From positions 1 through 25,961 of IMG/VR virus record IMGVR_UViG_3300013093_000240: a stretch of DNA of 25,961 nucleotides. One strand, written 5' to 3'. A program made the position numbers and the translations under genes. Below the pieces are notes generated by a model that was not told the origin of the DNA, did no database searches, and saw nothing but the letters and a program-made list of their open reading frames with translations. This document shows, one piece after another, positions 2,786 through 22,566 of this stretch. Each line of letters starts with the position of its first letter. The stretch's first letter is position 1. The stretch is from a virus.

Positions 2786-4660
2786 ATGGATAATTATCAA
2801 GAATACATCGCTGCCAGCCGTTACGCCCGTTATCAAGATGACAAAGGTCGTCGTGAAACTTGGGACGAAACAGTGCAGCGCTTTGTAGATTACATTTTCA
2901 GCCGCACACCCCAAATTACCGAAAACGAAAAGTTAAAAAAAGAACTTTTTAAATCCATTAAAAACCTAGAACTTATGCCGTCCATGCGCGCCATGATGAC
3001 TGCAGGAAAGAGTGCCGACCGTGATAACACATGTGTTTACAACTGTTCGTATTTACCTGTCGACGATCCTAAATCGTTTGACGAAGCCATGTTTATATTG
3101 TTATGCGGAACGGGTGTCGGCTTCTCGGTTGAGTCTAAGTACATTAATCAATTGCCTGAAGTGCCAGATCAGCTCTTTGAATCGGAACATATCATCGCCG
3201 TGCATGACTCCAAAGAAGGCTGGGCAAAATCATTACGTCTACTCCTCGCCCACCTCTGGGCTGGAGAAATTCCAAAGTGGGACGTGTCCAATGTCCGACC
3301 TGCCGGAACACGACTCAAAACTTTTGGTGGAAGAGCTTCCGGGCCAGAACCATTAGTAGATTTATTTCAATTTGCAGTAAATACGTTTAAACATGCTAAA
3401 GGTCGTAAGTTGCATTCATTGGAGTGCCACGACTTAATGTGTAAAATTGGCGAGGTAGTTGTGGTTGGTGGCGTTCGCCGTTCAGCTATGATATCATTGT
3501 CAGACTTAGATGATGAAAGGATTCGACATGCAAAAGCTGGACCATGGTGGGACACTGCGCCACACCGCGCTCTTGCGAACAACAGTGCGGTGTATAACGA
3601 AACACCTACTGTCGGAAAGTTCATGGAAGAGTGGCTGTCACTTTACAACTCCCATTCCGGTGAAAGAGGGATTTTTAATCGGGAAGCTGCTAGAAAGACG
3701 GTTGAAAAATACGGGCATCGTGATCCAAATTATGAGTTCGGAACTAATCCATGCTCGGAGATCGTTTTGCGACCATACCAATTTTGTAATCTCAGTGAGG
3801 TTGTAGTACGCCATGACGACACAAAAGAAACTTTGCTGCGTAAAGTGCGGCTCGCATCTATCCTTGGAACCATCCAGTCTACCTTTACAAAGTTCCCCTA
3901 TCTGCGCAAGGTGTGGCAGAGAAATACTGAAGAAGAACGGCTTTTGGGTGTCTCCCTCACCGGAATCTATGATAATCCCCTTCTCACAACCCAAGGAGAC
4001 AAGTTAAATGAGTTACTTGCCGAACTACGAGTTGCAGCCAGAGAAACTAATAAAGAATGGGCAGCTATTCTTGGAATACCTGAAAGCGCTGCAATCACTG
4101 CAGTCAAACCCAGCGGAACAGTTTCTCAATTGGTCGACAGCGCATCAGGAATTCATCCAAGACATTCCAAATATTACATTAGACGAGTTCGCGGAGATAA
4201 AAAGGACCCTCTTAGCCAGTTCTTGGTCGCCAGCGGAATACCTTCGGAGGACTGCGTATACAAACCCACTCAAACGACAGTATTTAGCTTCCCTATCAAA
4301 GCTCCAGACGGACTTACAAGAGCTGATGTTACACCCATTTCACACCTCGCTCTTTGGCTTACCTACCAACGACACTGGTGTGAGCACAAGCCCTCCGTCA
4401 CAATCTCAGTCGAGGAAAAAGATTGGCCAGCAGTCGGAGCTTGGACATGGGAAAACTTTGACGAAATCTCCGGAGTCAGTTATCTCCCCTACGATGGAGG
4501 AACTTACCGCCAAGCTCCATACGAAGAGTGCACAGCCGAGCAGTACGAAGAACTTAAAGCTAAGATGCCAAAGATTGATTGGGCTCTTCTCAAAGAAGAA
4601 ACCGACAACGTAGAAGGCGCACAGATGCTTGCTTGTGCGGCTGGCGTTTGTGAAATCTGA
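2786..4660 (+). CDS. nrdJ: Adenosylcobalamin-dependent (class II) ribonucleotide reductase
   Basis: 624 aa; reduces ribonucleotides (probably triphosphates) to deoxyribonucleotides using adenosylcobalamin as radical source, supplying dNTPs for phage replication. It matches the single-chain RTPR type: NCSYLPVDD with C87, CGTGVGFSVE (107-116), NPCSEI with C323 as thiyl-radical cysteine and N321/E325 beside it, FCNLSEV with C334 as partner of C87, KPSGTVSQL (441-449), and a C-terminal C617-x4-C622 shuttle pair with the same spacing as in Lactobacillus leichmannii RTPR. It is shorter than that enzyme (739 aa). No small subunit gene accompanies it, as expected for class II. The host must supply or scavenge B12 (inference). 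DUF1289 follows after 3 bases. Confidence 0.93.
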   Translation: MDNYQEYIAASRYARYQDDKGRRETWDETVQRFVDYIFSRTPQITENEKLKKELFKSIKNLELMPSMRAMMTAGKSADRDNTCVYNCSYLPVDDPKSFDEAMFILLCGTGVGFSVESKYINQLPEVPDQLFESEHIIAVHDSKEGWAKSLRLLLAHLWAGEIPKWDVSNVRPAGTRLKTFGGRASGPEPLVDLFQFAVNTFKHAKGRKLHSLECHDLMCKIGEVVVVGGVRRSAMISLSDLDDERIRHAKAGPWWDTAPHRALANNSAVYNETPTVGKFMEEWLSLYNSHSGERGIFNREAARKTVEKYGHRDPNYEFGTNPCSEIVLRPYQFCNLSEVVVRHDDTKETLLRKVRLASILGTIQSTFTKFPYLRKVWQRNTEEERLLGVSLTGIYDNPLLTTQGDKLNELLAELRVAARETNKEWAAILGIPESAAITAVKPSGTVSQLVDSASGIHPRHSKYYIRRVRGDKKDPLSQFLVASGIPSEDCVYKPTQTTVFSFPIKAPDGLTRADVTPISHLALWLTYQRHWCEHKPSVTISVEEKDWPAVGAWTWENFDEISGVSYLPYDGGTYRQAPYEECTAEQYEELKAKMPKIDWALLKEETDNVEGAQMLACAAGVCEI

Positions 4661-4852: not shown

Positions 4853-4870
4853 TTTGACATGGTGGTGTTT

Positions 4871-4897
4871 GGGGAGCTTGTATAGCTCCCCTTTTTT
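4871..4897 (+). terminator. Rho-independent terminator after RNR-DUF1289
   Basis: Perfect 8-bp stem GGGGAGCT (4871-4878) / AGCTCCCC (4884-4891), loop TGTAT, then six T (4892-4897). It starts 18 bases after the DUF1289 stop, the same arrangement as the terminator at 469-495. Confidence 0.9.
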
Positions 4898-4907
4898 ATG
4901 CTACAAT
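4878..4907 (+). promoter_or_regulatory. Extended -10 promoter for the DNA polymerase, overlapping the terminator
   Basis: TACAAT at 4902-4907 preceded by TG at 4899-4900 forms an extended -10 box (TGCTACAAT). TTGTAT at 4878-4883, spaced by 18, lies in the terminator loop and is a weak -35. The layout copies the promoter at 477-505, where the -35 also lies in a terminator loop. Transcription would start near 4914, leaving a leader of about 33 bases. Confidence 0.65.
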
Positions 4908-4946
4908 GGACTCTTACAGATTCGTCTGGACGCCATAGGAGCATAT

Positions 4947-6863
4947 ATGATTTACAGCATTGACTTTGAAACACGCAGCCACATTGATCTAACAGAACAA
5001 GGGCTCGACATCTACGCCAACGACCCCACAACAGAAGTGTTGTGTATGGCCTACGGTATCAACCCACACGACGTGGATATTTGCAATCCCAAAGATAAGT
5101 TTTTATACAACCCAGTAATTGCTCACGTTGAGCAAGGTGGCAAAATCCAAGCATGGAACGCCATGTTCGAGTACGCCATCTGGAACTGTGTCTGTGTGCC
5201 CAAGTACGGCTGGCCACCTCTAAAGCTGGAGCAGTGCATTGACTCTATGGCGATAGCAGCAGCCAACAACATCCCTCAGAGCTTGGGTGATGCTGCCATG
5301 TTTATGGATGCAGATCATAAGAAAGATACCCGTGGTAGGTACCTTATTCAAAAGCTGTGCAAACCTATTAAAGGATCCTTTAATGAGGACCCAGAGCTAT
5401 TAAAGGAACTTTACATATACTGCCAACAAGACGTCCGTGCGGAGATGTCGATTGTAGCCAATTTAAGGCCCCTATCAGCCGAGGAGCAGGAAGTTTGGAC
5501 CATGACCCAGCGGATTAATTTGAGAGGCGTACCGGTCGATCCTAAAGAGCTCCAAAACGCCGTAAAAGCAGTGGAAGGGGCGCAGGCACAACTGGACCAA
5601 GAACTCGTCTCCTTGACCGGTTTTAAGCCCTCTGAGCGGGCTAAATTGCTGGGTTGGTTAAATGGGAAGGGTGCGGGTATGGAGGATATGACCGCAAAGA
5701 CCGTTTCAGCTATGTTAGTGAACACTAACTTACACCCTGATGTACGGCGCGCATTAGAGTTGCGCCAAGAAGGAAGCCAAACTAGCGTGGCTAAGTACGC
5801 TAAGATGATGGAGATACAACGTGAAGGACGGATTAGGAATACACTGGTATATCATGGCGCTAGTACTGGTCGTTGGGCATCAAGGGGCGGACTTAATTTA
5901 CAGAATATTGCGAGGCCCACGCTCAGTGATGAACAAATTGAACAGGCTATACCTGAAGTCTTTGGAAGGGGATCTGGAACGATGCTACAACTTTCCTCTT
6001 TGGTACGATCATCAATCAAAGCTCCGGACTCCAAGACCTTCGTTGACGTGGATTTTAGTTCAATTGAAAACCGAGTTGGGGTTTGGCTCGCAGGACAAAA
6101 CGACAAAGTTGAACTCTTCAGAAAGGGATTAGATGAATATAAAGTCTTCGCTTCAGAAAGCCTATACCGAGTCCCTTATGATGAAGTCACGAAGGATCAA
6201 CGCCAGGTCAGCAAATCAGCTGTCCTCGGTGCAATGTTTGGTCAGGGTGCTAAAGGGTTGGTTAAGTATGCTGAAGGAATGGGGGTCAAACTGACTGAGG
6301 CGCAAGCCAAGAACGCAGTAGATGGTTACCGCAGTTCGTATTCGAAAGTGAAGGAGTTGTGGGCATTGTGTGAAAATGCCGCGATTGAAGCAGTAAGCAA
6401 TCCCGGTAACCCATTTCGGGCGGGACAGCATATTGTGATGAAAGTTGCAAAGGATGCACTTTGGATGCAACTACCAAGTAAACGTTTGATCTGTTGGCAA
6501 AGGCCACAGCTCGAGCTGGTCACTACTCCGTGGGGTGCTACTAAGTATGGTGTCACTGTGCATAGCTTGAACACCTACACTAGAGCATGGACAAGGAATC
6601 AGCTGATCGGTAGCTCCATTTTTCAGTCTGCAGTGCAAGGAACCGCTCGCGATTTTCTGGCTAATGCGATGCTCAATTTGGAAAAGAATGGCTATGAGCT
6701 CATCAATTCTATCCATGACGAAGTGTTACTCCTAGTTGATGAGGATAAAGCAGAAGAGGCTTTGGAGAATGATGTCATGCACATAATGACTAATCCTCCA
6801 AAGTGGGCACTTGACTTCCCCCTGCAAGCAGAGGGATGGGTCAATAAGCGTTATAGGAAGTGA
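4947..6863 (+). CDS. polA: Family A DNA polymerase (Pol I type) with 3'-5' exonuclease
   Basis: 638 aa; replicates phage DNA. The N-terminal DEDDy-type proofreading domain shows D6-x-E8 (SIDFETR), WNAMFE (70-75) and Y158-x3-D162. The polymerase domain shows TGRW (307-310) and NLQN, motif A DFSSIE (D369, E374), motif B R419-x3-K423 followed by AVLGAMFG, and motif C H590-D591-E592. Aligned to E. coli Pol I, F762 is Leu (L427) and Y766 is Phe (F431). There is no 5'-3' exonuclease domain, as in many phage enzymes. I chose the ATG at 4947 because AGGAG (4937-4941) sits 5 bases before it and the protein then opens directly with the exonuclease motif; the frame stays open upstream to a TTG at 4854 inside the promoter/terminator. 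It abuts the convergent virion gene with no gap. Confidence 0.95.
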   Translation: MIYSIDFETRSHIDLTEQGLDIYANDPTTEVLCMAYGINPHDVDICNPKDKFLYNPVIAHVEQGGKIQAWNAMFEYAIWNCVCVPKYGWPPLKLEQCIDSMAIAAANNIPQSLGDAAMFMDADHKKDTRGRYLIQKLCKPIKGSFNEDPELLKELYIYCQQDVRAEMSIVANLRPLSAEEQEVWTMTQRINLRGVPVDPKELQNAVKAVEGAQAQLDQELVSLTGFKPSERAKLLGWLNGKGAGMEDMTAKTVSAMLVNTNLHPDVRRALELRQEGSQTSVAKYAKMMEIQREGRIRNTLVYHGASTGRWASRGGLNLQNIARPTLSDEQIEQAIPEVFGRGSGTMLQLSSLVRSSIKAPDSKTFVDVDFSSIENRVGVWLAGQNDKVELFRKGLDEYKVFASESLYRVPYDEVTKDQRQVSKSAVLGAMFGQGAKGLVKYAEGMGVKLTEAQAKNAVDGYRSSYSKVKELWALCENAAIEAVSNPGNPFRAGQHIVMKVAKDALWMQLPSKRLICWQRPQLELVTTPWGATKYGVTVHSLNTYTRAWTRNQLIGSSIFQSAVQGTARDFLANAMLNLEKNGYELINSIHDEVLLLVDEDKAEEALENDVMHIMTNPPKWALDFPLQAEGWVNKRYRK

Positions 6864-9254
6864 TTAAGGTAGGCCGCCCTTTGGACCGTTGATAGGTAGA
6901 CCAGTAGCTGGGTCTATCACGTGAACACCAGGGGCGGTTACTGCGGGCTTTTTCTTAGATTGCTCAATGCTTTCAACAGCAGTCAACGCACCTAATGGAG
7001 TATTTTGTTTTATTACTTGGCCCAGTTGCTTAATTGCTTCAGGACGCTCAGCAACCGCTTTACTCTTTAGCCATTCTTGAACTGGTTTGCTATATAAACC
7101 TCTTGCCCCGCCAATAGTTGCTGCAGAAACACCAGCTGCCACTGGTAAACCAACAAGGTGTGCTAAACCGGCAGCACTACCAGTCAACGCACCACCACCC
7201 AACCAGTTATAGATGCCGCGTTTTTCAGCATAGTTTTCACCGGGACTGGTAACGATATCTTTTATTGCTCCAGATAACTGATTTACATTTGCATCTTTTG
7301 CAGCTTTTTCAACATCTACTTTGTTTTGCAAAGCGTCTTTACGCAAATCGATGTTTTTATCAATTAGTTTAAATTCTGAAACTGGATTATCAGATCCTTT
7401 TAGAGCTTTTAACTCAGCCTCTTTAACACTATTAACATGGTTTGTTACATCTTTAACAAATGTTTTATGGGCCGCACGGTTCTCCATCATTTCTTTGTAT
7501 GCTTTTTCAGCCATTTGCTGAATTTCGCTTTGGCCACCGGCTAAACTCTTTGTAGATAATTCAGACTGGATAGCTTTTAGTAAATCAGCGGGCTTAGCTT
7601 CACCAGCATCTTTTAAACTGGACATGTAAGAAGCAGCTTTTTCTGGAACTTTAAATTCGTGAAAAGCCTTATTGGCATTTTTAAATAAATCGCTACCGGC
7701 TTGACCTTCAATCAAACCAATCCATTTATCTTTCAAATCGTCAAGTGCTTTACCATAGTTTTGTTCAAAAACGGTTTTAGTTGGCGACTTTGCAGCATAG
7801 GCTTCTCTGCTCAATGAACTTAGTTGATCTTGCCAATCTTTTGGATTGAGCCAGTTTCCGTTCTTTGTAGCATTTATTAAGCTATCAACTTTACCTGTTA
7901 ATAACTTGTGTAGTTTAGATCCTTCTCCACCTAAAGAAGTTGGATCAGTATTAGCCACATCTTTTAATTCAGTCTTAACAGATTCAGGTAATTTTAAACT
8001 GCCGATATCTTTAAGCGAATCTTCGTAAGCCTTAGAAATATTCTTTTGGCCTTCAGCAATCATTTCATGCCCTTTAGCACCTGGAGTAACATGGTACTCT
8101 GGCGGTAAATTAGACATAGCTCTATCAACAAACGGACGATGAAAGTTTGATTCGCTTTCTTTAAGCGCTGATTCTTTTTCGCCAATGTGCGCAGCTAAAT
8201 CTGCATCTGCTTTAGCATGAGCTGCTTCTAAGTCAGCAATTTTTTGCTGTTTAGTTTTAGCCGCCATAGTATCCAAAGTACCTGTGGACCCTGGAGTACC
8301 AATTACTTTGTTTGCCTGACCCTGTAAAACTTCTTTTTCAATTTCGTTTGCAGCTTTTTTCTCTGCCAAAGATTGATTTAAAGATTTAATACCGCCAACA
8401 ATTTTATCTCGAACACCACCAAATGGAATATCACCTAAAAGGTTTTCCATTTTTTGAACACCGCCACCTAAAAGCTGACCAATTGTAGTGTCTTTTAAAA
8501 TCTCTTCATTAGATAGGCCCATAGCTTTAAGTTCTTTAAAGCGTTTTAAAGCTGGGCTAAACATTGCACTGGCCCCACTTCCAAGACCATGGAATCCCGC
8601 ACCAAAAAGTGCACCCATCATAGCTTCGTCTGTAGCAGCACCGGCTGTAGGGTTTGCTCCTAATACTCCAGTAGCTGCACCACCGGCAACAGATTGGCCC
8701 CAAAATGGATGCTCGGCAATCCACTTACTGGTTTTACCAGCAACAGAAGAAATATCAGAGCCAGCTTTTTCAAGCATTGGAGCAATAGTAGGAGCTTGTT
8801 TTTCTGCAAATTGAAGTGCTTCTTGCCCCGCTGCTTTAGCACCTTGGCCAACTTTAAATGCACTTGTGCCAAGTCCTTTTAACCCGGCAAAATCTCCAGC
8901 TAAACTAGCTGTGCTACCTAATGGGCCTTGAATACCTGGTGCCCAGTCACTTTGCTTTTTAATACCAACGTCAGTTTGTGTGAGCGCGTTAATTGGGTCT
9001 TGATAACCCATCCACTTAGCCACATCAGCGAATGGTTTTGCAGTAGACATGGCCGCACGAATAGGAGCTCCAGTAATGTCTGTCATAACATTAGCTGCAA
9101 CTTTACCAGCCCCTGTCGGAGCCGCTTGAGTGCTCGGAGTAACTAGCGGGATGCCTTCAGGGCTATAAACTGTGTCTTCATCCGGTGTAAACTTTTCAGC
9201 AACAGGCTCGGGAGCAAATTCCCTAACTGGAGTTGGCGCGTATTCTCTAGCCAT
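6864..9254 (-). CDS. Large internal virion / DNA-ejection-type protein (796 aa)
   Basis: No enzymatic motif is visible. The N-terminal 40 residues are Pro-rich with repeats of EFAPEPV type. Residues 110-230 are Gly/Ala-rich and moderately hydrophobic. The stretch LKDTTIGQLLGGGVQKMENL through IPFGGVRDKIVGGI (about 253-289) resembles a motif I know from large internal proteins of podoviruses (TPGQ-x-LGG...EDK...IP). Residues 290-370 are charged and coiled-coil prone. Residues 680-735 are again Gly/Ala-rich and hydrophobic (LTGSAAGLAHLVGLPVAAGV), able to enter a membrane. Position at the end of the tail gene cluster, behind other large Ala-rich proteins, fits a T7 gp15/16-like ejected core protein. 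This is inference from context and composition. Its ATG overlaps the preceding stop by one base (TAATG). Confidence 0.65.
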   Translation of the reverse strand: MAREYAPTPVREFAPEPVAEKFTPDEDTVYSPEGIPLVTPSTQAAPTGAGKVAANVMTDITGAPIRAAMSTAKPFADVAKWMGYQDPINALTQTDVGIKKQSDWAPGIQGPLGSTASLAGDFAGLKGLGTSAFKVGQGAKAAGQEALQFAEKQAPTIAPMLEKAGSDISSVAGKTSKWIAEHPFWGQSVAGGAATGVLGANPTAGAATDEAMMGALFGAGFHGLGSGASAMFSPALKRFKELKAMGLSNEEILKDTTIGQLLGGGVQKMENLLGDIPFGGVRDKIVGGIKSLNQSLAEKKAANEIEKEVLQGQANKVIGTPGSTGTLDTMAAKTKQQKIADLEAAHAKADADLAAHIGEKESALKESESNFHRPFVDRAMSNLPPEYHVTPGAKGHEMIAEGQKNISKAYEDSLKDIGSLKLPESVKTELKDVANTDPTSLGGEGSKLHKLLTGKVDSLINATKNGNWLNPKDWQDQLSSLSREAYAAKSPTKTVFEQNYGKALDDLKDKWIGLIEGQAGSDLFKNANKAFHEFKVPEKAASYMSSLKDAGEAKPADLLKAIQSELSTKSLAGGQSEIQQMAEKAYKEMMENRAAHKTFVKDVTNHVNSVKEAELKALKGSDNPVSEFKLIDKNIDLRKDALQNKVDVEKAAKDANVNQLSGAIKDIVTSPGENYAEKRGIYNWLGGGALTGSAAGLAHLVGLPVAAGVSAATIGGARGLYSKPVQEWLKSKAVAERPEAIKQLGQVIKQNTPLGALTAVESIEQSKKKPAVTAPGVHVIDPATGLPINGPKGGLP

Positions 9255-11104
9255 TATTTGGGCTCCCTGTAAAACCTTCCATTTTCGTAACCATAGTTGT
9301 ATTTATCTGGCTCATAAGATTTGAAATGTTTAATGGCATCTGCGTTAACATCCGGTGCTTTAGTGGCTGGGGTTTTATTAAACGCGGTTACTGTGTTTTT
9401 AAAAATTCTTTCACGCTCGCCGCTAGCATCCCAGGCTCGTTCACCACCAGCTAAATCTTTTGGATATTTATCTAAAAATCTTAAATGCGCCAAATTAACT
9501 TCATTCTTAGCTTGCATGATTTGGAACGTTGTTTTAACAAACTCAGCTGGATCATTAATGCTTGTCAAAGACTTAGCAAAGTTATCGGCTTCTTTACCGG
9601 TGTACTGGGCACCCATAGCAGCTTTAGCGCCGTGGGCAACATACTGTTGCTTAGCTTGCTCAATTGTTAAGTTACGGGAATAGCGCGCAAGTTCTTCTGG
9701 GTCAACAGGAACACCTGCTGCAATTTTTGCAAAAATATAATTTTGCTTAATAGTAGAACCAGGGCCTTGCTCCTCGCCCTTACCTTCATCAACGGCTTTA
9801 ATAGCCATTTTAGCAGAGTCAGCAGCATCTTGGTACATTGTTTTATTATCAGTAAGATCTTTGTACACTTTGCCAACAGCTTCATTTGTTAACGCGATGT
9901 TTTTATACTGCTGCTCTACACCAGGGACAGATGTATCTTGCTCACCTGGAGTCAATGGACGTGCCGGAGATATTGCTCCAGTTGGAGTAGTCGTTGCCTG
10001 AATCTCAGCTTTCATTCCAGGAACAGAACCCACGCGATAGAAATGGTTTTCTTCTAAACCAGTCCCACGTTTGTATCCGGCTGCTGCAGCTTTTGCGTCT
10101 AATTCTGGAGTTACAGAACCAGGCTTAACATCAAAACCATCGCCAGTAAAATGCGGACTAGTTTTTAAATCAATTGGGCGACCTTGCGCTGTTCTTGGAA
10201 TACCGTTTTCATCGTAGTGATGCACCAACGCAGCACTCTCAACGGGAGTTCTAGTTCCGCTAATAACTTGGAAACCGTTATCAACAGCCCAATCAGCAGC
10301 TGTTGTTTTACCTTGAGTTGGAGTAGCTGTCGGAGTAGGCGCATTTGGCTGTTTAAACAAAGAAGCAGCATCTGGGCTGTACTCAGTAGCAACACCATTA
10401 ACAACACGTTTAGCCGGTTGAAACAGATTTGGAAAGTTTTGACGCGCCCATGCTTCGTTTTGTGGGGTATAGTCCATACCTTTGAGGGTATCAAGAACTT
10501 TAAGTTGATCTGGTTTCTTCAATTCATTTTGCTGAACTGTTTTCATTAACTCAGTAGGGTTTGTTCTAGCTAAAACAGCACCCCAACGTCTTTGTGACTC
10601 TGGCAATGAATTTACTTCATTTGCAAATGGGCCTGTATAGGCACCAGGTGCACCGCCAGCTGTTCCACCAGCGGTAGTGCCAGGACCAGCCATGGTGTCT
10701 GCAATAACTTTATTTTGGTTTTGCATGGCTTGCATAGCAGCCATACTTTGAGCAATATTATATTTATTGGCCCGGTCTTGCTCTTGCTCCATTTGAATTT
10801 GTTGGAACGCAGGAGTTTTATCATACTTAGTCCAAGCATGAGCTTCTTTTAAAGAATCTTGAAATTTTTTGTAAGGGCTATTGTATTCATCCAACATTTT
10901 TTGCATGTTGTCTAAAATACCCTTACTAGATTGCTCATCCAAAACAGTACCTGCAGTTGGGGTAATTGTCGCCAATGTACCTTTCCCACCACCTGTAATT
11001 TTAACAGGCTGTCCAATCGTAGACTGAAGGCTAGCCTGTGGTGTTTCACTATCTTGGTTTGTTGCAACCGCAGATAATGGAGCTTGTGTTGGTAAATCTG
11101 CCAT
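9254..11104 (-). CDS. Virion protein with embedded M15-type zinc peptidase domain (616 aa)
   Basis: The N-terminal 260 residues are low in complexity and helical (Met/Gln-rich 100-140, Gly/Thr/Ala-rich 140-155). Residues about 266-358 carry an M15-like (VanY/D-Ala-D-Ala carboxypeptidase, L-alanoyl-D-glutamate endopeptidase) signature: GFQVISGTRTPVE, then S316-P-H318-x6-D325 in SPHFTGDGFDV (the S-x-H-x2-G-x3-D zinc motif) and E351-x2-H354 in EENHFY as catalytic Glu and third ligand. The C-terminal 250 residues are helical. It would cut peptidoglycan peptides, probably during genome entry as a virion-associated hydrolase; the lysis endolysin is encoded separately. SD AAGGA stands before the ATG on the - strand. 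The domain call rests on motif reading; the virion location is from gene context. Confidence 0.75.
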   Translation of the reverse strand: MADLPTQAPLSAVATNQDSETPQASLQSTIGQPVKITGGGKGTLATITPTAGTVLDEQSSKGILDNMQKMLDEYNSPYKKFQDSLKEAHAWTKYDKTPAFQQIQMEQEQDRANKYNIAQSMAAMQAMQNQNKVIADTMAGPGTTAGGTAGGAPGAYTGPFANEVNSLPESQRRWGAVLARTNPTELMKTVQQNELKKPDQLKVLDTLKGMDYTPQNEAWARQNFPNLFQPAKRVVNGVATEYSPDAASLFKQPNAPTPTATPTQGKTTAADWAVDNGFQVISGTRTPVESAALVHHYDENGIPRTAQGRPIDLKTSPHFTGDGFDVKPGSVTPELDAKAAAAGYKRGTGLEENHFYRVGSVPGMKAEIQATTTPTGAISPARPLTPGEQDTSVPGVEQQYKNIALTNEAVGKVYKDLTDNKTMYQDAADSAKMAIKAVDEGKGEEQGPGSTIKQNYIFAKIAAGVPVDPEELARYSRNLTIEQAKQQYVAHGAKAAMGAQYTGKEADNFAKSLTSINDPAEFVKTTFQIMQAKNEVNLAHLRFLDKYPKDLAGGERAWDASGERERIFKNTVTAFNKTPATKAPDVNADAIKHFKSYEPDKYNYGYENGRFYREPK

Positions 11105-11113
11105 AATTATTCC

Positions 11114-12121
11114 TTATTGTACCACTGGAGCGGTTAAATCACCGCCCGTAGATGAAGTATATTGGTCATTAATGGGCATAGATGTACTTACTGAACCGTC
11201 GCCATTATTTAGACTAACCGTACTATTACCCGATGAATCCGTTGTAGCCGTGGTGCCTGAATTTGATGAGCTAGACCCCAAAATATTTGGAAACGCATTT
11301 TGTAAAGTACTTAAAAATCCTGCCGTAGCCGGTTTGTATCCCGAAATCCCTTGAGTTCCTTGTGCTGGTGTACCAAACAAGCTATCTAATAAACTTGTAC
11401 CTGCTGCAGGAATACTAGATAAAGACCCTAACATTGAAAGAGGCGACATTTGGTTTTGTGTGGATACTGTAGCAGGAGCGTTGACAGCATTTACCAAGTT
11501 TGCGTAGTTTGTTACACCTTGGAACGGAGCATTCATTTGAGCTGCTCCAGTTGTAAGGTCTGCAGTTGTACCTTGTGTTCCGATTGTACCTAAACCAGCA
11601 GCAGCTTGAGCTCCTGTGCTTTGGTTTTGCAATGCTGCAGTCATTTGTTGTGCCTGCAATTGAGCCATAGCATTGGCTCTTGCTGTATCTACAGCGGTTT
11701 GACCACGTAAGCTACCAAAGTTACCAGAGCCAATAGCACCTGCTTCAGTGCCAGCAGTTTGCGTTGGTAGGATTTGATTAAGCTGTTGGTTTTCTGCTTG
11801 GAACAAACCACCTAATGCAGTGCTCGTATTTGGCGTAACGTTACCAGTCGTTGGGTCAACAATCCACGGATTAGCTGCACCGGTAGCAATCTGGTTTAAA
11901 TTAGTTTGGCCTTGAGTAAATGGATTATTTGGGCCAGCCAAAGTATTAACAGCCTGCTGCCCAGTTGTTTGACTAAAAGCTGGAGCACCAGCTGCAGCAG
12001 TACCAGCTTGGTTGATAACGTTTTGTTGCGCTGCATCCATCCATGATGGGAGCGTCGTTTGTGTCTGATTTGTATCAGTTAAAAGGTTATTTAACCCGGA
12101 TGAGGTTGATGTACCTGCCAT
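11114..12121 (-). CDS. Asn/Gln/Ala-rich putative internal virion protein (335 aa)
   Basis: 335 aa, rich in Ala, Gln, Asn, Thr and Gly with almost no charged residues after the N-terminus. The central part (about 120-180, QLNQILPTQTAG... ANAMAQLQAQQMTAALQNQS) is probably a long helix; the last 60 residues are Ser/Thr/Gly-rich. It lies between the 1011-aa and 616-aa virion proteins, overlapping the former by TAATG. Composition and place suggest a T7 gp14-like internal or ejection protein, but no family is recognised with certainty. Confidence 0.6.
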   Translation of the reverse strand: MAGTSTSSGLNNLLTDTNQTQTTLPSWMDAAQQNVINQAGTAAAGAPAFSQTTGQQAVNTLAGPNNPFTQGQTNLNQIATGAANPWIVDPTTGNVTPNTSTALGGLFQAENQQLNQILPTQTAGTEAGAIGSGNFGSLRGQTAVDTARANAMAQLQAQQMTAALQNQSTGAQAAAGLGTIGTQGTTADLTTGAAQMNAPFQGVTNYANLVNAVNAPATVSTQNQMSPLSMLGSLSSIPAAGTSLLDSLFGTPAQGTQGISGYKPATAGFLSTLQNAFPNILGSSSSNSGTTATTDSSGNSTVSLNNGDGSVSTSMPINDQYTSSTGGDLTAPVVQ

Positions 12122-15100
12122 TATGCTCTCGCTTTTTTCTGTGCTTGTAATAAATAAGCCAACGGGCCTTTGCTATCTGGGGGTAGATGCTTGGAGTCGT
12201 GCTTCTGTTTATGTTCTCTAACTGTTTTTAAAAATAAATCTAATACTTTTGCGCCAGCTTCATTACTACCGTTACCTAAACCAGATACTACATCAGCTGG
12301 AATAACAAACTCACCGTTTGCCAGCATAGCTGGTACACTGTCGCTAGTACCGTCCCCGTCACCACGCACGTATTTATTGTGCAATGAATTTAAACCGCCT
12401 TCACTAAAGAACTGTGGGTTGTGCCCCTCGGGCAAAGTCCTATCTTGGAACATCATATTGCCAGGCTGTCCGCCATTTTGCAAATGCGGTGCACTGGATA
12501 AAGGAGAACCTTTTAAACCAAACAAACTAGCATGTGTGGCATCATGTCCTTTTAAAAACACAGGACCACCATCTACTCTATGAATTATACCACCATTTTT
12601 AGCTTGTTGGATTTCTTGCAAATCCAAAGGTGTAATTTGCTGCGCTGCTGAAGTCGCAGCAGTTTCTGGTTTAAGAATAGCAGCTAAAGGATCAGCAATT
12701 TGAGTACCTTTAGAGAACGATGCTGTTCCCGGAGTGATTGTTTTCTTGGTTGCTGCCACGTTTGAAGTTCCTGTTGTACTTGTTCCTGTTGTGCTTATTC
12801 CAGTGCCAGTGCCAGTGCCAGTGCCAGTGCCAGTTCCTGATCCACTACCGCCGCTATTTCCAGCTATAATCCCTGCTACTACACCTGCTGCTGTACCAGC
12901 CCCAGTATTGGAAGAACCAGTACCAGCCGTTGTGCTAGTACTTGGTGTTGTGCTAGTGCTTGGTGTTGTACCAGTACTTGGTGTTGTGCTAGTACTAGCC
13001 GTTGTGCTAGTACCAGCCGTTGTGCTAGTACTTGGTGTTGTGCTGGTACTTGGTGTTGTACTTGATGTTGTGCTGGTGCTTGGTGTTGTACTTGATGTTG
13101 TGCTGGTGCTTGGTGTTGTAGATGACCCAATAATATTAGCAACAATATCGTTTGCCGATACATCACTACCAGTACCAGAAGTACCTGTTTCTCCAGTACC
13201 CGTTGTGCTAGTTGTTGGAGTTTCAGCTGTGCCGCTTCCACTGGAAATAGGCTGCGCATTGTTAAACGAGTCAGGTGCTCCAGTAACTGTAACTGTGCCT
13301 TTTGCACCTTGTACTATACCAGTTCCAGTTCCCGCAACTTGGCCGGATTCACCGGTAAAGGTTGCTCCTGTTGTGGCGCTTGCTTGTTGGTTAAGGCTGC
13401 CGTCTGCATTGTAAACAGCGCCGGTAGAACTAAGATATCCTGTAGACCCATCTGGATTTGTAACCGGTATGGTGTTTGCTAAATTAGCAATCTGTGCTGT
13501 GTTCTGTGTTAGGTTATCTGTTGATGGTTGCGGGCCAACTTGAGCAGATGGGGCAGATAAAGCAACATCTGGAATATTAAGCCCAGAAGCTAACTGACCA
13601 TTTGAAATCTGTGACAATCCACTTAACGTTGTGCCCAAAGAATTAGCTACACTATTAAGTGCTGATTGATTAGTACCGTATTGCTGTAAACTTGTATTTA
13701 ACGCATTTGTGCTACTTGTTGCAGCTGTTTGCAGTGGTGCAATAGCAGTGCTATATAAATTTTGTAAATTTGTATTGGCTGTTTGAAATGCAGTATTAGC
13801 TGGTGTATAAGCATTAACAGCATCTGTATAGGCTTTTGACGCAGCATTTGCAGCATCATAGTTTGCTTGTGTCGGGTTATCCTGAAACGCTTTGTACGCT
13901 GTGTTATACGCAGTTTCTGCTTGTGTTGCAGCAGTATATAATCCGCTTGCTGTTTGCTGTAAGTTTTGTACATTAGCATATTCAGGTTGATACTTATTTG
14001 TATAAGCGTCACTTAAAGCAGCTTGATCTGCTTTTGCTTGGTTGTATGCTGCAGTTGTAGCATCTGTACTAGAAGTAACAGTACTCTGTGCATTTTGTAA
14101 ATCTGTTAACTGCCCACTAGCTTTACCAGATAATAAATCTGCTTGAGCTTTTAACTGAGCCTCAAGGACAGAAGTACCATCAGGTGTAGTTGAAGATGTA
14201 GCTGACGGTGTAATCGAAGCAGAAGGAGCTGTTAACGCATTTAGCCCAGAACCCACAGTTGCGCCAATAGCCCCTGTTTCTGCTCCAGTGGCAACGTTGC
14301 CACCCTTAATAGCAGAACCAGCCGCACCAGTTGCGGCGCCGACAATAGCGTTTGCAACAGAACTCGGAATACTTCCGGACATAGCACTATTTGCTTGGCC
14401 ACCCAATGAGCTTAACGCGCCACTAATTGCAGTGTTTTCTAAAACTGATTTTGGATCTGCACCACCAGCAATAGCTTTAGTAGCAGCCAAAAGAGCTGAT
14501 GCCACTGGTGTGCTAATAGGTGCACTTAAACCCATCTGAGCAGCCAGCGCTGGCGATGTTAAACTATCTAACGCACCACCTGTCAACCCACCAGTAATAG
14601 CACCAGTCAAAATACCAGTTAACGGATCTTGTCCGGTGACAGCGGCTTTTACACCGCCCATAGTGCCGCCTGTTAAAGCACCGGTTCCTGCTGAATTAAG
14701 CAGTGACTGAAGCGGCACACCTTGTTGGAGAGCAGTATCTAAAGCACCAGATGTTAATCCAGTGCCAGTTCCACCTGCAGTAGTAGCCAAAGCTGTAGCA
14801 GCATCGGTAACACCAGCAGCAGTTGTGCCCGCTGGTAGACCCAATGACGCAGCATCTACACCAGCATCAAGAGCTTCGGCAGCAGTTTCATATCCCGCTG
14901 CTTGAGCAAATCCATCGGCTGTAGCCAATGTTCCCGCATCTAAAGCACCACCAGCCCCAGCTAAAGCAGGAGCTAAATATGGCGCTGCAATAGCTAATGC
15001 AGCAGTTCCTAAAGTTGCCCAACCACCAGGTATTGTATCATGTACAGACTTATCTAATTGGGCGGCCATGCCCAATAAACCGCCACCGCTTCCGTCTGTT

Positions 15101-15156
15101 CCAAGAGCATGGGAAAAGCCATCGGTTATAGCACTTATTGGATTACTACCGCTCAT
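12121..15156 (-). CDS. Very large Ala/Thr-rich virion protein with repeat tract and conserved C-terminal motif (1011 aa)
   Basis: Residues 1-310 are Gly/Ala-rich with several amphipathic hydrophobic stretches (LAIAAPYLAPALAGAGGALD; repeated TGGLTGG-like units). Residues 330-500 are a Tyr/Gln/Ala helical, coiled-coil-prone region. Residues 678-746 are a low-complexity tract of TTPSTS hexads, and 771-787 is a Gly-Thr dipeptide run. The last 160 residues change character: GGIIHRVDGGPVFLKG and, at 936-957, GTSDSVPAMLANGEFVIPADV. The latter motif recurs in tail-associated and tape-measure-like proteins of many phages (recollection). A structural role in the tail or ejected core is inferred; the Ser/Thr tract may be a flexible linker. 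The start overlaps the previous stop by ATGA. Confidence 0.7.
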   Translation of the reverse strand: MSGSNPISAITDGFSHALGTDGSGGGLLGMAAQLDKSVHDTIPGGWATLGTAALAIAAPYLAPALAGAGGALDAGTLATADGFAQAAGYETAAEALDAGVDAASLGLPAGTTAAGVTDAATALATTAGGTGTGLTSGALDTALQQGVPLQSLLNSAGTGALTGGTMGGVKAAVTGQDPLTGILTGAITGGLTGGALDSLTSPALAAQMGLSAPISTPVASALLAATKAIAGGADPKSVLENTAISGALSSLGGQANSAMSGSIPSSVANAIVGAATGAAGSAIKGGNVATGAETGAIGATVGSGLNALTAPSASITPSATSSTTPDGTSVLEAQLKAQADLLSGKASGQLTDLQNAQSTVTSSTDATTAAYNQAKADQAALSDAYTNKYQPEYANVQNLQQTASGLYTAATQAETAYNTAYKAFQDNPTQANYDAANAASKAYTDAVNAYTPANTAFQTANTNLQNLYSTAIAPLQTAATSSTNALNTSLQQYGTNQSALNSVANSLGTTLSGLSQISNGQLASGLNIPDVALSAPSAQVGPQPSTDNLTQNTAQIANLANTIPVTNPDGSTGYLSSTGAVYNADGSLNQQASATTGATFTGESGQVAGTGTGIVQGAKGTVTVTGAPDSFNNAQPISSGSGTAETPTTSTTGTGETGTSGTGSDVSANDIVANIIGSSTTPSTSTTSSTTPSTSTTSSTTPSTSTTPSTSTTAGTSTTASTSTTPSTGTTPSTSTTPSTSTTAGTGSSNTGAGTAAGVVAGIIAGNSGGSGSGTGTGTGTGTGTGISTTGTSTTGTSNVAATKKTITPGTASFSKGTQIADPLAAILKPETAATSAAQQITPLDLQEIQQAKNGGIIHRVDGGPVFLKGHDATHASLFGLKGSPLSSAPHLQNGGQPGNMMFQDRTLPEGHNPQFFSEGGLNSLHNKYVRGDGDGTSDSVPAMLANGEFVIPADVVSGLGNGSNEAGAKVLDLFLKTVREHKQKHDSKHLPPDSKGPLAYLLQAQKKARA
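12801..12836. repeat. Six tandem copies of a 6-bp unit
   Basis: CAGTGC repeated five times and ending in CAGTTC. On the coding (-) strand it gives the Gly-Thr run of the 1011-aa protein. Such runs change length easily by slippage in whole 6-bp steps, keeping the frame. Confidence 0.9.
12919..13125. repeat. Minisatellite of 18-bp and 12-bp units within the 1011-aa gene
   Basis: About 200 bases built of imperfect 18-bp units such as GTTGTGCTAGTACTTGGT, mixed with two 12-bp short units (GTTGTACTTGAT). It encodes Thr/Pro/Ser hexads (TTPSTS) on the - strand. There are no unique spacers, so it is a coding minisatellite and not a CRISPR array. The opposite strand is open too, giving a spurious Val/Pro/Leu repeat frame. 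Confidence 0.9.
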
Positions 15157-15533
15157 AGCTCAGCCATCCATAAATAGTGTGGTTTATCTGATTTTTGAAC
15201 TTTCAATCCAAGTTTATTTAACAGCGGTAAAGTTTTTTCTAATACCGGACCACCATCTTCGCCATACACTTTTTTAAACCCGGAATTTTTAACTTGCCCA
15301 ATAAAATATTTCATTGCGGATTTAATTTTGTTTGGAGTATCTGCAGTAAAAAAGTTTATTTCTGCAGCGTTATTTCCAATGTTTACTAAAAATAATAGTG
15401 AATCACCGTGCTGTACTAAGTGCCCAACTTGCTTTTGAATCATCGCGTTCATTGTTTCCATTAAACGAGCAGTATCGGCTTGGCTGTGGCCAAAACGCTT
15501 GTGATCTGCTTGGATGATTTCGGATGGGGTCAT
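15153..15533 (-). CDS. Small hypothetical protein of the tail module (126 aa)
   Basis: A mixed alpha/beta protein with TPSEIIQADHKRFGHSQADT at the N-terminus and a C-terminal part, YGEDGGPVLEKTLPLLNKLG then LKVQKSDKPHYLWMAEL, whose shape recalls the end of GNAT-like small virion proteins such as T7 gp13. No acetyl-CoA binding loop is visible, so this comparison is weak. I chose the ATG at 15531-15533; the frame also has a TTG two codons earlier. Neither has a clear ribosome site. It is the first gene after the conserved 18-base element and a terminator, and it overlaps the 1011-aa gene by ATGA, so it probably heads the internal-protein sub-operon. Confidence 0.65.
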   Translation of the reverse strand: MTPSEIIQADHKRFGHSQADTARLMETMNAMIQKQVGHLVQHGDSLLFLVNIGNNAAEINFFTADTPNKIKSAMKYFIGQVKNSGFKKVYGEDGGPVLEKTLPLLNKLGLKVQKSDKPHYLWMAEL

Positions 15534-15555
15534 ATTCAATAAGATTGTGGTCTAC

Positions 15556-15573
15556 ATCTACTAATGCAAAAAA
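15556..15573 (-). promoter_or_regulatory. Conserved intergenic element, copy A
   Basis: On the - strand this reads TTTTTTGCATTAGTAGAT, identical over 18 bases to copy B at 22012-22029. Its first 15 bases equal the + strand sequence at 490-504. It lies directly after a terminator stem and before the 126-aa gene. It may be a phage promoter or processing signal; a good -35 box is not visible. Confidence 0.6.
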
Positions 15574-15591
15574 TAGGGCAAAAACGCCCTA
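15568..15591 (-). terminator. Rho-independent terminator after the 89-aa gene
   Basis: Reading on the - strand: TAGGGC stem, loop GTTTTT, GCCCTA stem, then six T. It starts 2 bases after the TAA of the 89-aa gene and splits the late region between the tail/gp10-like genes and the internal-protein genes. The short 6-bp stem may allow read-through. Confidence 0.75.
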
Positions 15592-15593
15592 AA

Positions 15594-15863
15594 TTAGTGG
15601 GATTTACCGTTAATGATTAAAGCTGTTTCTTTAGCCCAATCCTGCCAGTTGTCAAATGTTTCTGGGTTTGGAACGGGGAAAGCTGAAAAGGTAAAGGTAC
15701 TGGAAATTACAGATGCTGTATCTTTCCAGTTTTCTTCTGAGTTATATGGCACATTTAACTGACCATAGTAAATGATAAAGTTACCATTCCAATCTTCCCA
15801 GCTAGACAACTCAGGAGAAAACGGAAAAAACGGTTGGTTTCGTTTATTGACAAAAGTTGTCAT
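15594..15863 (-). CDS. Hypothetical small tail-module protein (89 aa)
   Basis: 89 aa, rich in Trp, Asn and Phe (SSWEDWNGNFIIYYGQLNVP; ETFDNWQDWAKETALIING). The two W-x-D-W segments at roughly residues 22-25 and 72-75 look like an internal duplication of a short motif. It has no membrane segment or catalytic motif. Its ATG overlaps the stop of the gp10-like tail gene (ATGA), so it is translated with it and may be a small virion or assembly protein. No family is recognised. Confidence 0.7.
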   Translation of the reverse strand: MTTFVNKRNQPFFPFSPELSSWEDWNGNFIIYYGQLNVPYNSEENWKDTASVISSTFTFSAFPVPNPETFDNWQDWAKETALIINGKSH

Positions 15864-18016
15864 GGACGCTCGTCACCAAACTCACAAGTAACTAAGTTAC
15901 GGCCCATTTCATAATTGCCGTCAATTTCGTTAGATTCAAACTTTAAACGAATTAAGCGGTGCTCAACACGAAGGTCAATTTTACCGGTATCTTGGGTAAA
16001 ATAGTATGGCCCGGAATCCTCTTCCATGGGGCTTGATGCAAACTTGCGGCCTAAAATGGTCATGGACATAGTACCGGTTTGCAAGAAGTTAGGCTCAACA
16101 CGGCGCAAGTGCATGCGGCGGTTTACTCCAACTAAACCATCTTGGCTTGGGTTACCTGTTAGCCAGCCAACATCGCTGGTGGTAATGCTAGAATAAACAG
16201 CTTGCTCTGTATTTAGTCCAACTTTGTTTTGGCCAAACTCATGCTGCCAAATTGTAAATCCACCAGTTTGTACATATACTGGTGTGCCAGCTACAGGAGT
16301 TATTGGGTTTTCTTCGCTAAATGTTACTAATGTAACACCAGGTGTGCCAATGGTAGTATTATAAATATTGGTGGAAGCTGTTACTAAATATGTTTGGTTG
16401 AAGTCTTGCGTTTGTGAAAAAGCAAAAATTGAACCCGGGGGTAACTGAGGTGTTACATCGCCAGCAATATACATCTGGTATACTGTAGGAGCGGGCAAAC
16501 TTGCTGGGTGGTTGATAACGTAGAGCGGTGCGCTAAAAGACGGATTGTAATTCCAATCAGCCCAAATAGGTGTTGGAAAAATCTCAGTAGTCCAACCACA
16601 AGAGCGTTGTGCACCTTCAGCGGAGCCAGCATCATACCAGAGCTTATCTTTAGTATTATAGATAATTGCGTCGGTGCATTCTGTTGCTGTACCGCGGGGA
16701 TAAAAGAACCAAATCTCATTGTAGCGTGGGATTTTAGTAGCCCATACTTTTTGGCGTTGTGTGTAATTGATGTTGTCAAAGAGCCAGTTTACGTTCTTAT
16801 CATTAGGCACCACCTGTACACTACCATTGTAGGCATAGAAGCGGTCAACACCCATCCACCAATAAACACCATCCATCTCCACAATAGCATTGGAAGACAT
16901 GATTGAGATTTGGCTAGAAATAATATCGTAGTTCCAGAACTGATTTACTGTTACAGTAGAAGATGCAGATGAGTTAAAGGAAACACGAATAAGAGAGTCA
17001 GTAGCCCAGAATAGTCCAGCTGGGGAGTTAGTACCCCCACGCATTGGTATACCTTTAACAATCTTGGAAGAGGCTACGTTAGTTTGGTTGGCTAATGGGC
17101 CATTCCAGTCGTAAAAGTTTTGCTGCAAGTATGTGCTGCTGACGTTATTGTTGGCAATATAGCCATGCGAGCCGTACACAAAAATAAACGGATACAATAC
17201 GCAAACACCGCCGTCAACACTAATTGGTTGGTATGTTGGGTTTTGGCCTGCGCTATCTGATAAGCCTGTGAAGTTCCAAGTATTTGCAACAGACGGCGCA
17301 ATATTACCTACTAGAACTTGTGATGGAACACCGTTGTCAATATCCTGTAAGTTATAACCTGGATGGGCAAAAATAGACAGTTGGCCGCCTTGTGGGCTAA
17401 ATTGAGCATCAAATTGCCAAGTAATGCGATAAGGCCCATTAGCTGGGTCTTCAGTAAATGTTGGTGTGTTGTTTAGCCAAACGTTTGTTGGGCTACCTGA
17501 AATGGTTCCAGTAACGTTTACTGTGGTATTTGGGGATGTATATGTGGCAGTTGTAGTTACAAAATTTACCGGCGTTGTCTGGTTAAAGATAACATTTGTT
17601 CCGGTGGGGAAAAGCGCTGTTACGTTACCTGCAATAGTAAAGCTAGAACTTGTATGTGATACAAGAGTAAATTGTGAAGTACCTGGGAGAATATTAGCTG
17701 TAAATGGTCCGCTACCACTACCAAAGTTAATGCCGCAAGTAAACACATCAAGCTCTTGGTAGTTACCTGCAAAAATGTAGTTTACGCCATTATATGGCTG
17801 TACTACCATACCGCGGTAAATGCCAACGTTACTAGTAAACAACGTGCGGTAACCACCCATCTTTTTAGGGTCACCACGCTGAAAACGACACCACACACCA
17901 TCAGTGTATTGGTCGTTTTGGAATTGTGTACCGTCGCGTTTAATCCCAGCCGGAATTGCTAAGCTGTAAATTGAGGTATATTGCGAGGTATCCTGTTGCT
18001 GATTATCAGCCGCCAT
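15860..18016 (-). CDS. P22 gp10-like tail hub / packaged-DNA stabilization protein (718 aa)
   Basis: A long beta-rich protein that fits the tail nozzle of short-tailed phages, which closes the portal channel and holds packaged DNA. The N-terminus (SIYSLAIPAGIKRDGTQFQN...WCRFQRGDPKKMGGYRTLF) and the C-terminus (RRMHLRRVEPNFLQTGTMSM...YYFTQDTGKIDLRVEHRLIR...YEMGRNLV) have the pattern of this family, and repeated aromatic blade-like segments (DGVYWWMGVDRFYAYNG; RYNEIWFFYP) fit a beta-propeller. It is longer than P22 gp10 (about 470 aa); a Thr/Val-rich insertion near residues 100-200 explains part of it. It abuts the fibre-like gene upstream (stop TAA followed directly by ATG). The family call is from pattern recognition. 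Confidence 0.75.
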   Translation of the reverse strand: MAADNQQQDTSQYTSIYSLAIPAGIKRDGTQFQNDQYTDGVWCRFQRGDPKKMGGYRTLFTSNVGIYRGMVVQPYNGVNYIFAGNYQELDVFTCGINFGSGSGPFTANILPGTSQFTLVSHTSSSFTIAGNVTALFPTGTNVIFNQTTPVNFVTTTATYTSPNTTVNVTGTISGSPTNVWLNNTPTFTEDPANGPYRITWQFDAQFSPQGGQLSIFAHPGYNLQDIDNGVPSQVLVGNIAPSVANTWNFTGLSDSAGQNPTYQPISVDGGVCVLYPFIFVYGSHGYIANNNVSSTYLQQNFYDWNGPLANQTNVASSKIVKGIPMRGGTNSPAGLFWATDSLIRVSFNSSASSTVTVNQFWNYDIISSQISIMSSNAIVEMDGVYWWMGVDRFYAYNGSVQVVPNDKNVNWLFDNINYTQRQKVWATKIPRYNEIWFFYPRGTATECTDAIIYNTKDKLWYDAGSAEGAQRSCGWTTEIFPTPIWADWNYNPSFSAPLYVINHPASLPAPTVYQMYIAGDVTPQLPPGSIFAFSQTQDFNQTYLVTASTNIYNTTIGTPGVTLVTFSEENPITPVAGTPVYVQTGGFTIWQHEFGQNKVGLNTEQAVYSSITTSDVGWLTGNPSQDGLVGVNRRMHLRRVEPNFLQTGTMSMTILGRKFASSPMEEDSGPYYFTQDTGKIDLRVEHRLIRLKFESNEIDGNYEMGRNLVTCEFGDERP

Positions 18017-22044: not shown

Positions 22045-22566
22045 CTAAATCTTGGCTAAAAACAGTTCTCTTTCGCGTTTACGGCGGTTTTCTAGAACCG
22101 CTGGTTTATTCCACATCAAGATAGCGTCAGCCGCACCTTGCATGTCATTTGCGTTGATTTTCTTGACAACGGTAGAGTTCTTAAAAGCACTAGCTCCAAT
22201 ATTGAAGCAGAGGCTGTATAAGGCGTCAAATTGGTTTTGGGCTAGGGGCACCTTTACTGAACCTTCAACGGCCTCGCTACACCACTTTAAATCCTTTCTA
22301 AGCAGGTCTTCTACCTGGTCGTTAGTTAGGGTGGCGTTAATAAGGTCTTTTTCATCATCTTTGATAAGGTGGCCTACTCCAATGGTCCAAAGGCCCTTAG
22401 TGTCCTTGTATGCCTTGGTACGGGCGCCTTCCTCTTTGGTAATGAAGTCTAGTGTGGATTTTGCAATTGCCATGATGTTTTCTTCAATATTAGTATAGTT
22501 ATCAGTGAAGTGGATAGCGGCAGCAATGCCCAATACCCATAAAAGTACTACAAATAGCTTTTTCAT
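22045..22566 (-). CDS. GH24 endolysin (T4 lysozyme type) with N-terminal membrane anchor
   Basis: 173 aa muramidase that cleaves the MurNAc-GlcNAc bond of peptidoglycan for host lysis. The catalytic triad is plain: E46 in EEGARTKAYKD, D55, and T61 in WTIGVGH, the same E-x8-D-x5-T spacing as T4 lysozyme E11/D20/T26. Residues 3-20 (KLFVVLLWVLGIAAAIHF) form a single hydrophobic segment after two lysines: either a signal-anchor-release (SAR) segment or a cleavable signal ending AAA. Export would then be Sec-dependent and not need large holin holes. AAAGGAG on the - strand gives a strong ribosome site for this start; M32 (MAIAKSTLDF) could be an internal start for a cytosolic form but lacks a good site. 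Confidence 0.92.
   Translation of the reverse strand: MKKLFVVLLWVLGIAAAIHFTDNYTNIEENIMAIAKSTLDFITKEEGARTKAYKDTKGLWTIGVGHLIKDDEKDLINATLTNDQVEDLLRKDLKWCSEAVEGSVKVPLAQNQFDALYSLCFNIGASAFKNSTVVKKINANDMQGAADAILMWNKPAVLENRRKRERELFLAKI

Follow-up and report, generated by a model that had tools for sequence, protein, structure and literature searches.

We found that a 616-residue protein, encoded in a stretch of viral DNA of 25,961 bases that makes up the entire record of an uncultivated phage (the window hereafter), carries a predicted zinc-peptidase module of the M15 type, and that close relatives of this protein, compared by sequence, hold different modules at the same place. In our joint reading, in which we place considerable confidence, the 616-residue protein would be an ejection protein whose linker-flanked M15 peptidase cuts the host wall at entry, and the place that the peptidase occupies would be an exchange slot. 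An M15 peptidase with the VanY/LdcB/Ply500 fold would sit between two flexible linkers of the ejection protein and, after release from the head, would bind zinc via H318, D325, and H354, with E351 serving as the general base. The domain would then cleave bonds in the stem peptides of the host's peptidoglycan, allowing the DNA conduit to cross the wall. At the exchange slot, the N-terminal part, the enzyme module, and the C-terminal part would recombine, such that the chemistry of the slot may change between peptidase (M15, M23) and transglycosylase (SLT). We infer the virion location, ejection, activity, and entry role of the protein, as well as recombination as the cause of the differences between relatives.

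A predicted M15 peptidase module between two linkers

The gene for the 616-residue protein lies on the minus strand (9254..11104), and an earlier note on this DNA had read a full M15 zinc and catalytic set from it. All five residues of that set (S316, H318, D325, E351, and H354) were found exactly where they had been claimed, within a module that covers residues 265-358 (10031..10312; minus strand, as for all features of this protein). The predicted zinc ligands H318 (10151..10153), D325 (10130..10132), and H354 (10043..10045), for which the note had proposed a check of conservation, were unvarying in all eight M15 modules that we aligned, as were S316 of the S-x-H motif (10157..10159), R285 (10250..10252), a conserved arginine that precedes the metal site, and the glycines G321 and G343. 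The predicted catalytic base E351 (10052..10054) was E or D in seven of the eight modules and H in the remaining one, that of relative L042. The predicted zinc-ligand and general-base roles follow M15 enzymology. The spacing between the ligands H and D, six residues in the window, was three residues longer in L007 and L020 and one residue longer in L042. The pattern S-x-H-x6-D-x(10-60)-E-x2-H arose in 12 of 20,000 shuffles of the 616-residue protein and occurred in one of the 54 stop-to-stop frames of at least 100 residues in the window, namely the 616-residue frame.

Scans with the single sequence returned no M15 model, neither for the whole protein in Pfam (up to E 1), PHROGs, or NCBIfam, nor for the domain by itself in PHROGs or NCBIfam, and a phmmer search of the whole protein against the PDB gave a single, unrelated match at E 0.65. 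The M15 assignment therefore rests on the relatives and on the fold. Among the relatives scanned, only L015 passed the Pfam VanY cut-off (32.4 versus 25 bits), L049 and L053 matched below it, and the window protein, which gave no VanY match up to E 1, fell short of a cut-off that is a sensitivity threshold and no structural feature. A profile of the eight modules, by contrast with the single sequence, matched VanXYc at E 1.9e-8 and ten further carboxypeptidase or dipeptidase entries of the M15 family at E 1.8e-7 to 2.8e-5. Upon removal of the three VanY-matching modules (L015, L049, and L053), VanXYc still came first, at an E value of only 0.0051, and a profile built without the window and its relative L002 recovered both modules from the 25 proteins searched, with 32.9 and 37.2 bits.

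Structure prediction, which the note had suggested as a check on the fold, gave an M15-like result. AlphaFold2, run on the eight-row alignment, modeled the module with a pLDDT of 90.4, and the first nine Foldseek rows against the PDB were LdcB, VanY, and VanXYc, with a best E value of 0.011 and no match reaching E 0.001. Using VIA, we aligned the modeled module to Ply500 (Z 6.7), LysB4 (Z 6.4), and VanXYg (Z 6.0); the 22 leading rows were peptidoglycan peptidases of the M15 family, unrelated folds began at Z 3.2, and no Z value came up to 8. At the level of motif, relatives' profile, and predicted fold, residues 265-358 are thus shown to be an M15 domain with a complete set of zinc and catalytic residues. 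The domain resembles the VanY/VanXY/LdcB group (Pfam PF02557), Ply500, and LysB4 in its predicted fold, in the S-x-H-x6-D and acidic-x2-H motifs, and in the conserved arginine; it differs from them in being a domain of about 94 residues between the linkers of a 616-residue phage protein, without a direct Pfam match. The linkers before (residues 253-266; 10307..10348) and after the module (residues 360-397; 9914..10027) were recognized by a pLDDT below 50 in a full-length model that was itself of low confidence (pLDDT 59.9).

The same matches bear on what the domain would do to the wall. It could be a D,D- or L,D-carboxypeptidase-like enzyme or a non-catalytic peptidoglycan binder that trims or holds stem peptides while the mesh stays closed, an alternative that we regard as unlikely while still giving it some weight. 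The profile matches in the PDB, being carboxypeptidases and dipeptidases (VanXYc, LdcB, VanY), and the histidine of L042 in the column of the catalytic base agree with this alternative. Yet the two best VIA matches, Ply500 and LysB4, are endolysins (with VanXYg within 1 Z of them), the window retains the full set of residues and all modules but one an acidic base, and the SLT and M23 domains that relatives carry in the same slot fit an opening of the wall better than a trimming of its peptides. The L042 protein (5873-7669 of its contig) keeps all ligands, and its module may be a changed or inactive enzyme.

The module is under strong purifying selection. Its closest counterpart, in L002 (one of two contigs, with L003, that a scan with the domain had found at 93% module identity), was about 92-94% identical to it (94% over 96 residues), while the remainder of the two proteins was 33% identical over 488 residues and the other M15 modules were 26-33% identical to that of the window. 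Between the window and L002, 25 of the 46 four-fold degenerate sites of the module agreed, compared with 24 of 72 elsewhere in the protein and 87 of 214 in the DNA polymerase (module versus polymerase, p 0.10; module versus rest, p 0.035). The 95 polymerase codons with the highest conservation gave a similar picture, with 97% protein identity and agreement at 23 of 43 sites. Because high protein identity is thus combined with agreement at only 25 of 46 four-fold sites, we ascribe the conservation of the module to selection on its sequence. A recent transfer of the window module, which we also considered, was unsupported by the four-fold sites given the comparison of 25 of 46 with 87 of 214.

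Placement among probable ejection genes

Judged from its position and its neighbor, the 616-residue protein most likely belongs to a set of three proteins that a short-tailed phage ejects. The genes are ordered as a 718-residue tail protein, small genes, a large protein, the 335-, 616-, and 796-residue proteins, and then genes on the opposite strand, an order like that of gp067 to gp062 in Caulobacter phage GB2A, where a relative of the 718-residue protein, a small gene, a large protein, a relative of the 335-residue protein, and two further proteins follow one another. The 718-residue protein (15860..18016, minus strand), which later served as an anchor for collecting relatives, matched phrog_3287 'virion structural protein' at E 3.6e-25, and its counterpart in MW202545 is annotated as a 'phage stabilization protein'. 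The 335-residue protein (11114..12121, minus strand) is DNA-ejection-protein-like: GB2A gp064 matched phrog_4287 'DNA ejection protein' at E 1.6e-9, and hhalign related the 335-residue family to gp064 and its MW202545 counterpart at 94% probability and E 9.8e-8, using two-row alignments. The slot gene lies directly after this ejection-related gene and before a large gene, as expected within an ejection cluster. That large gene, for a 796-residue protein (6864..9254, minus strand) that is by position a probable third ejection protein and that has diverged or been exchanged along with the slot gene, showed no enzyme by Pfam.

The 616-residue protein itself had no PHROG match, and hhalign did not connect the profile of its C-terminal part with GB2A gp063 (probability 0.6%), so that its label as an ejection protein rests on position and neighbor. 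GB2A also differs in that gp063, at the slot position, lacks an enzyme in Pfam and PHROGs, while an SLT domain lies at the C-terminus of gp062. Hydropathy revealed no clear membrane segment in the 335- or the 616-residue protein. The 616-residue protein could instead be a structural tail protein that is not ejected and whose enzyme acts at the tail tip, which we consider quite improbable. Such a tail protein would be in line with the lack of a direct match to a known ejection protein, including the failed alignment to gp063, and with names given elsewhere: the SLT region of the slot protein of L019 matched phrog_2013 'lytic tail protein' and two 'lytic tail fiber' models, and in the GB2A record gp065 and gp062 are annotated as a tape measure and a lytic tail protein, respectively. 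However, the upstream neighbor is related to DNA ejection proteins, and the L019 protein also matched phrog_342 'internal virion protein with endolysin domain' (residues 255-540, E 1.9e-9).

The note had set the domain apart from the lysis endolysin, and this held: the endolysin is encoded by a distinct gene (22045..22566, minus strand) that matched phrog_7 endolysin at E 3e-48, with weaker matches to lysozyme models and a hydrophobic N-terminus, and which we take to be of the lysozyme type from our own reading. Several further genes of the window were noted. Ahead of the ejection genes, a 1011-residue protein (12121-15156, minus strand) is rich in Ser/Thr/Gly repeats, and ORFs positioned like its gene range from 375 residues (L060) to at least 2031 residues (L037). 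A ribonucleotide reductase (2786-4660, plus strand; phrog_367 at E 1e-186, and the Pfam B12-dependent ribonucleotide reductase insertion domain) lies close to the gene for a family A DNA polymerase (4854-6863). Four consecutive ORFs at 23689-25960 (minus strand) look by eye like 2-oxoglutarate/iron oxygenases, with motifs such as PHRDD and HCESD.

Different modules in one slot among relatives

We gathered relatives by scans whose queries were the domain, an alignment of the window and L002 proteins, and the N- and C-terminal parts. Exact duplicates were excluded, as were L016 (a near-copy) and L012 (cut short), and the remaining 18 distinct proteins were aligned. Ahead of the slot lies an N-terminal family region (residues 1-130 in the window; 10715..11104) that relatives with different modules have in common, and the window protein ends in a C-terminal helical region (residues 397-616; 9257..9916) that was delimited by an alignment with five relatives and by helices in the model. 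Eight of the 18 carried M15 modules (the window, L002, L007, L020, L015, L042, L049, and L053). Two carried M23 (L009 with 51.6 and L022 with 53.5 bits, at a Pfam cut-off of 28.7), two carried SLT (L011 with 37.5 and L019 with 53.6 bits, at a cut-off of 21.3), four carried an NNPGN-type domain (L013, L014, L033, and, weakly, L023), and the slots of L028 and L029 held no recognized module. The slot domains were compact, with about 90-130 residues, and several went unrecognized by Pfam.

The NNPGN domain, of 126 residues (L033:7673-8050, L013:5721-6098, and L014:5691-6068), is possibly an uncharacterized wall-acting domain. The L033 copy matched a tape measure (E 1.4e-4) and an endolysin (E 0.0048) in PHROGs, where the L023 copy matched nothing; tblastn gave no match for the module, and 'NNPGN' was not found together with 'phage' in the open-licence literature.

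A less biased sample was obtained by anchoring on the 718-residue tail protein, which yielded 34 loci, 25 of which were examined after leaving out nine with less than 1.8 kb beyond the match. The whole slot gene was present in nine of the 25, corresponding to eight distinct proteins. M15-B modules occurred in L059 and L085 (the contigs of L007 and L008) and SLT in L084 (the contig of L019), and nothing was recognized in L058 (the contig of L029), L079, or L081. In the slot protein of L060 (5538-7541), a weak M15 match at residues 264-347 (9.6 bits) precedes a match to the C-terminal half of an SLT domain at residues 361-421 (25.5 bits, falling to 18.9 when the profile included a third SLT row), an arrangement that reads like the scar of a module exchange. 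The slot proteins of L056 (17188-19458) and L082 (17354-19636) contain a stretch of the form ESGANP...YGTYGITK that looks lysozyme-like by eye and was unconfirmed by Pfam, by PHROGs over the stretch, and, for L056 only, by the PDB. Downstream of the slot, the proteins of ten relatives and of L056, L060, and L082 gave no Pfam match above cut-off, and a search by eye among the ORFs of L029 (10.8 of 16.7 kb) did not reveal its missing enzyme.

Beyond these metagenomic contigs, which include all relatives except the named phages, searches returned little. The 616-residue protein had no relative at E 1e-3 by tblastn against 50,697 phage records, a pattern search with the whole protein gave two stretches, neither encoding a relative, the domain alone gave two weak phage matches (E 0.2 and 4) that we did not use, and the L011 and L015 proteins had no match among phages. 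As a search of genome contigs with the N-terminal profile yielded 31 stretches and no relatives, we name no host or prophage. For L002/L003, L007/L008, L015/L016/L017, L023/L024/L025, and L028/L029, identical or near-identical proteins recurred in records whose sample numbers differ, which argues against misassembly in these five sets.

Comparing the proteins part by part, we found that parts of one protein can differ strongly in their closeness to those of another, at a scale where modules of different families give identities near 20-25%. L023 and L053 were 74% identical in the C-terminal part, 27% in the N-terminal part, and 23% in the module, and L013 and L014 were closest in the module (87%), with 74% identity in the N-terminal and 24% in the C-terminal part. 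L014 and L015 shared 66% of the N-terminal part and 22% of the module. The window was 71%, 28%, and 36% identical to L007 in N-terminal part, module, and C-terminal part, and 24%, 30%, and 55% identical to L042. On an N-terminal tree of the 18 proteins, nine module labels needed 11 changes, where eight is the least possible and shuffled labels needed 13.1 on average, with as few as 11 in 4 of 200 shuffles. Since the labels are more clustered on this tree than in shuffles, the modules both descend with the phages and are replaced. The well-supported branches of a C-terminal tree of nine proteins forced two origins for the module type of the window; those of the N-terminal tree did not.

These patterns could in principle have come about without any exchange, if the proteins formed one ancestral family whose middle diverged so fast that the modules only look unrelated. 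Several pairs do have low identity throughout and the linkers diverge fast, yet we consider this explanation highly improbable: the SLT, M23, and VanY matches lie above Pfam cut-offs and represent different families, the module is the best conserved part between the window and L002, which is the reverse of fast divergence, and L060 combines a weak M15-like stretch with an SLT half. We favor exchange at the slot.

A near-identical pair and comparison with known systems

The difference in slot modules was sharpest between the window and L019, which are one contig each. Their 718-residue proteins were 99% identical and two small proteins 97% and 99%, followed by 79% for the 1011-residue protein, 80% for the 335-residue protein, and 84% for the DNA polymerase, whereas the slot protein and the 796-residue protein after it were 35% and 37% identical. 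At the DNA level, identity was 94.6% over 3.2 kb (14969-18177), up to the edge of the compared stretch. A block of about 4.5 kb (6866..11421, minus strand), delimited by identity per 100 bases, has diverged or been replaced: at 11421, identity dropped from 89% to 36%, and at 6866 a match resumed, with 82%. In between lay two islands, one of 75% within the N-terminal portion of the slot gene (10726-11005) and one of 76% at 7627-7757. The slot enzyme was an SLT transglycosylase in L019 and an M15 peptidase in the window. With L029, which carries no recognized enzyme, the window shared 85% of the tail protein, 87% of the polymerase, and 25% of the slot protein.

Wall hydrolases in ejection proteins are documented. 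In T7, the wall hydrolase resides in gp16, and some gp15 homologues carry it instead; wall-hydrolase domains in gp15-like and gp16-like proteins have been reviewed (PMC8954989). The exchange of a wall hydrolase between ejection proteins is documented already. The likeness to T7 lies in an ejection gene cluster with one gene carrying a wall hydrolase; in the T7 type, the available text describes a transglycosylase or lysozyme, whereas here different enzyme families occur at one position of one protein family. The ejectosome of Pectobacterium phage PhiM1 (PMC11440229) similarly has putative wall-degrading domains inserted in ejection proteins, which differ in being lysozyme-like and transglycosidase-like; the word 'peptidase' is absent from its main text. 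Domain exchange in phage proteins is well documented: Smug et al. 2023 (PMC10684548) described fragments exchanged between otherwise unrelated phage proteins, with endolysins among the hotspots, but 'ejection' is absent from the main text, and recent mosaicism of tape measures could not be confirmed there. In the tail-associated lysins of enterococcal phages (PMC10194240), different wall-enzyme classes likewise occur in the virion proteins of one group, with the difference, in the portions available, that tape measure proteins carry only transglycosylase domains and the lysins are grouped by viral genus. For E. coli phages, one account (PMC12031403) reports an endolysin domain in internal virion proteins, one of which carries a transglycosylase domain, as well as separate M15 endolysins, and no M15 internal virion protein was seen in its accessible sections.

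Searching a viral library with the M15 model, we obtained weak matches to parts of large phage proteins, none below E 0.001. Among them were, in Rhizobium phage RHph_I20, a 1285-residue 'putative internal virion protein' (E 0.052, probability 0.94) and, in Agrobacterium phage Atu_ph03, a 1191-residue protein named 'cell wall hydrolyse' (E 0.097). In view of these weak matches, virion proteins that contain an M15 domain are probably a kind already known. The earlier note had presented a peptide-cutting enzyme as an entry tool different from the transglycosylase that short-tailed phages more often use, a view that has weakened, as such an enzyme may not be unusual given the RHph_I20 match and the hydrolase domains covered in the review (PMC8954989). 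What appears to be new is the swap of one wall chemistry for another at one slot: we found no description of the replacement of an enzyme class at one ejection-protein slot in the open-licence literature, an absence that is weak evidence.

The window and L019 constitute a natural experiment on the entry enzyme, with a near-identical backbone and another class of wall enzyme at one place, and bear on two questions: whether selection for the enzyme comes from the wall chemistry of the host, and whether any small hydrolase is tolerated between the linkers of an ejection protein. The block of ejection genes may be a site dedicated to exchange, where phages whose tails are nearly alike would swap a peptide-cutting for a glycan-cutting entry enzyme or vice versa, possibly following differences in host peptidoglycan, a proposal for which we see the chances as evenly balanced.
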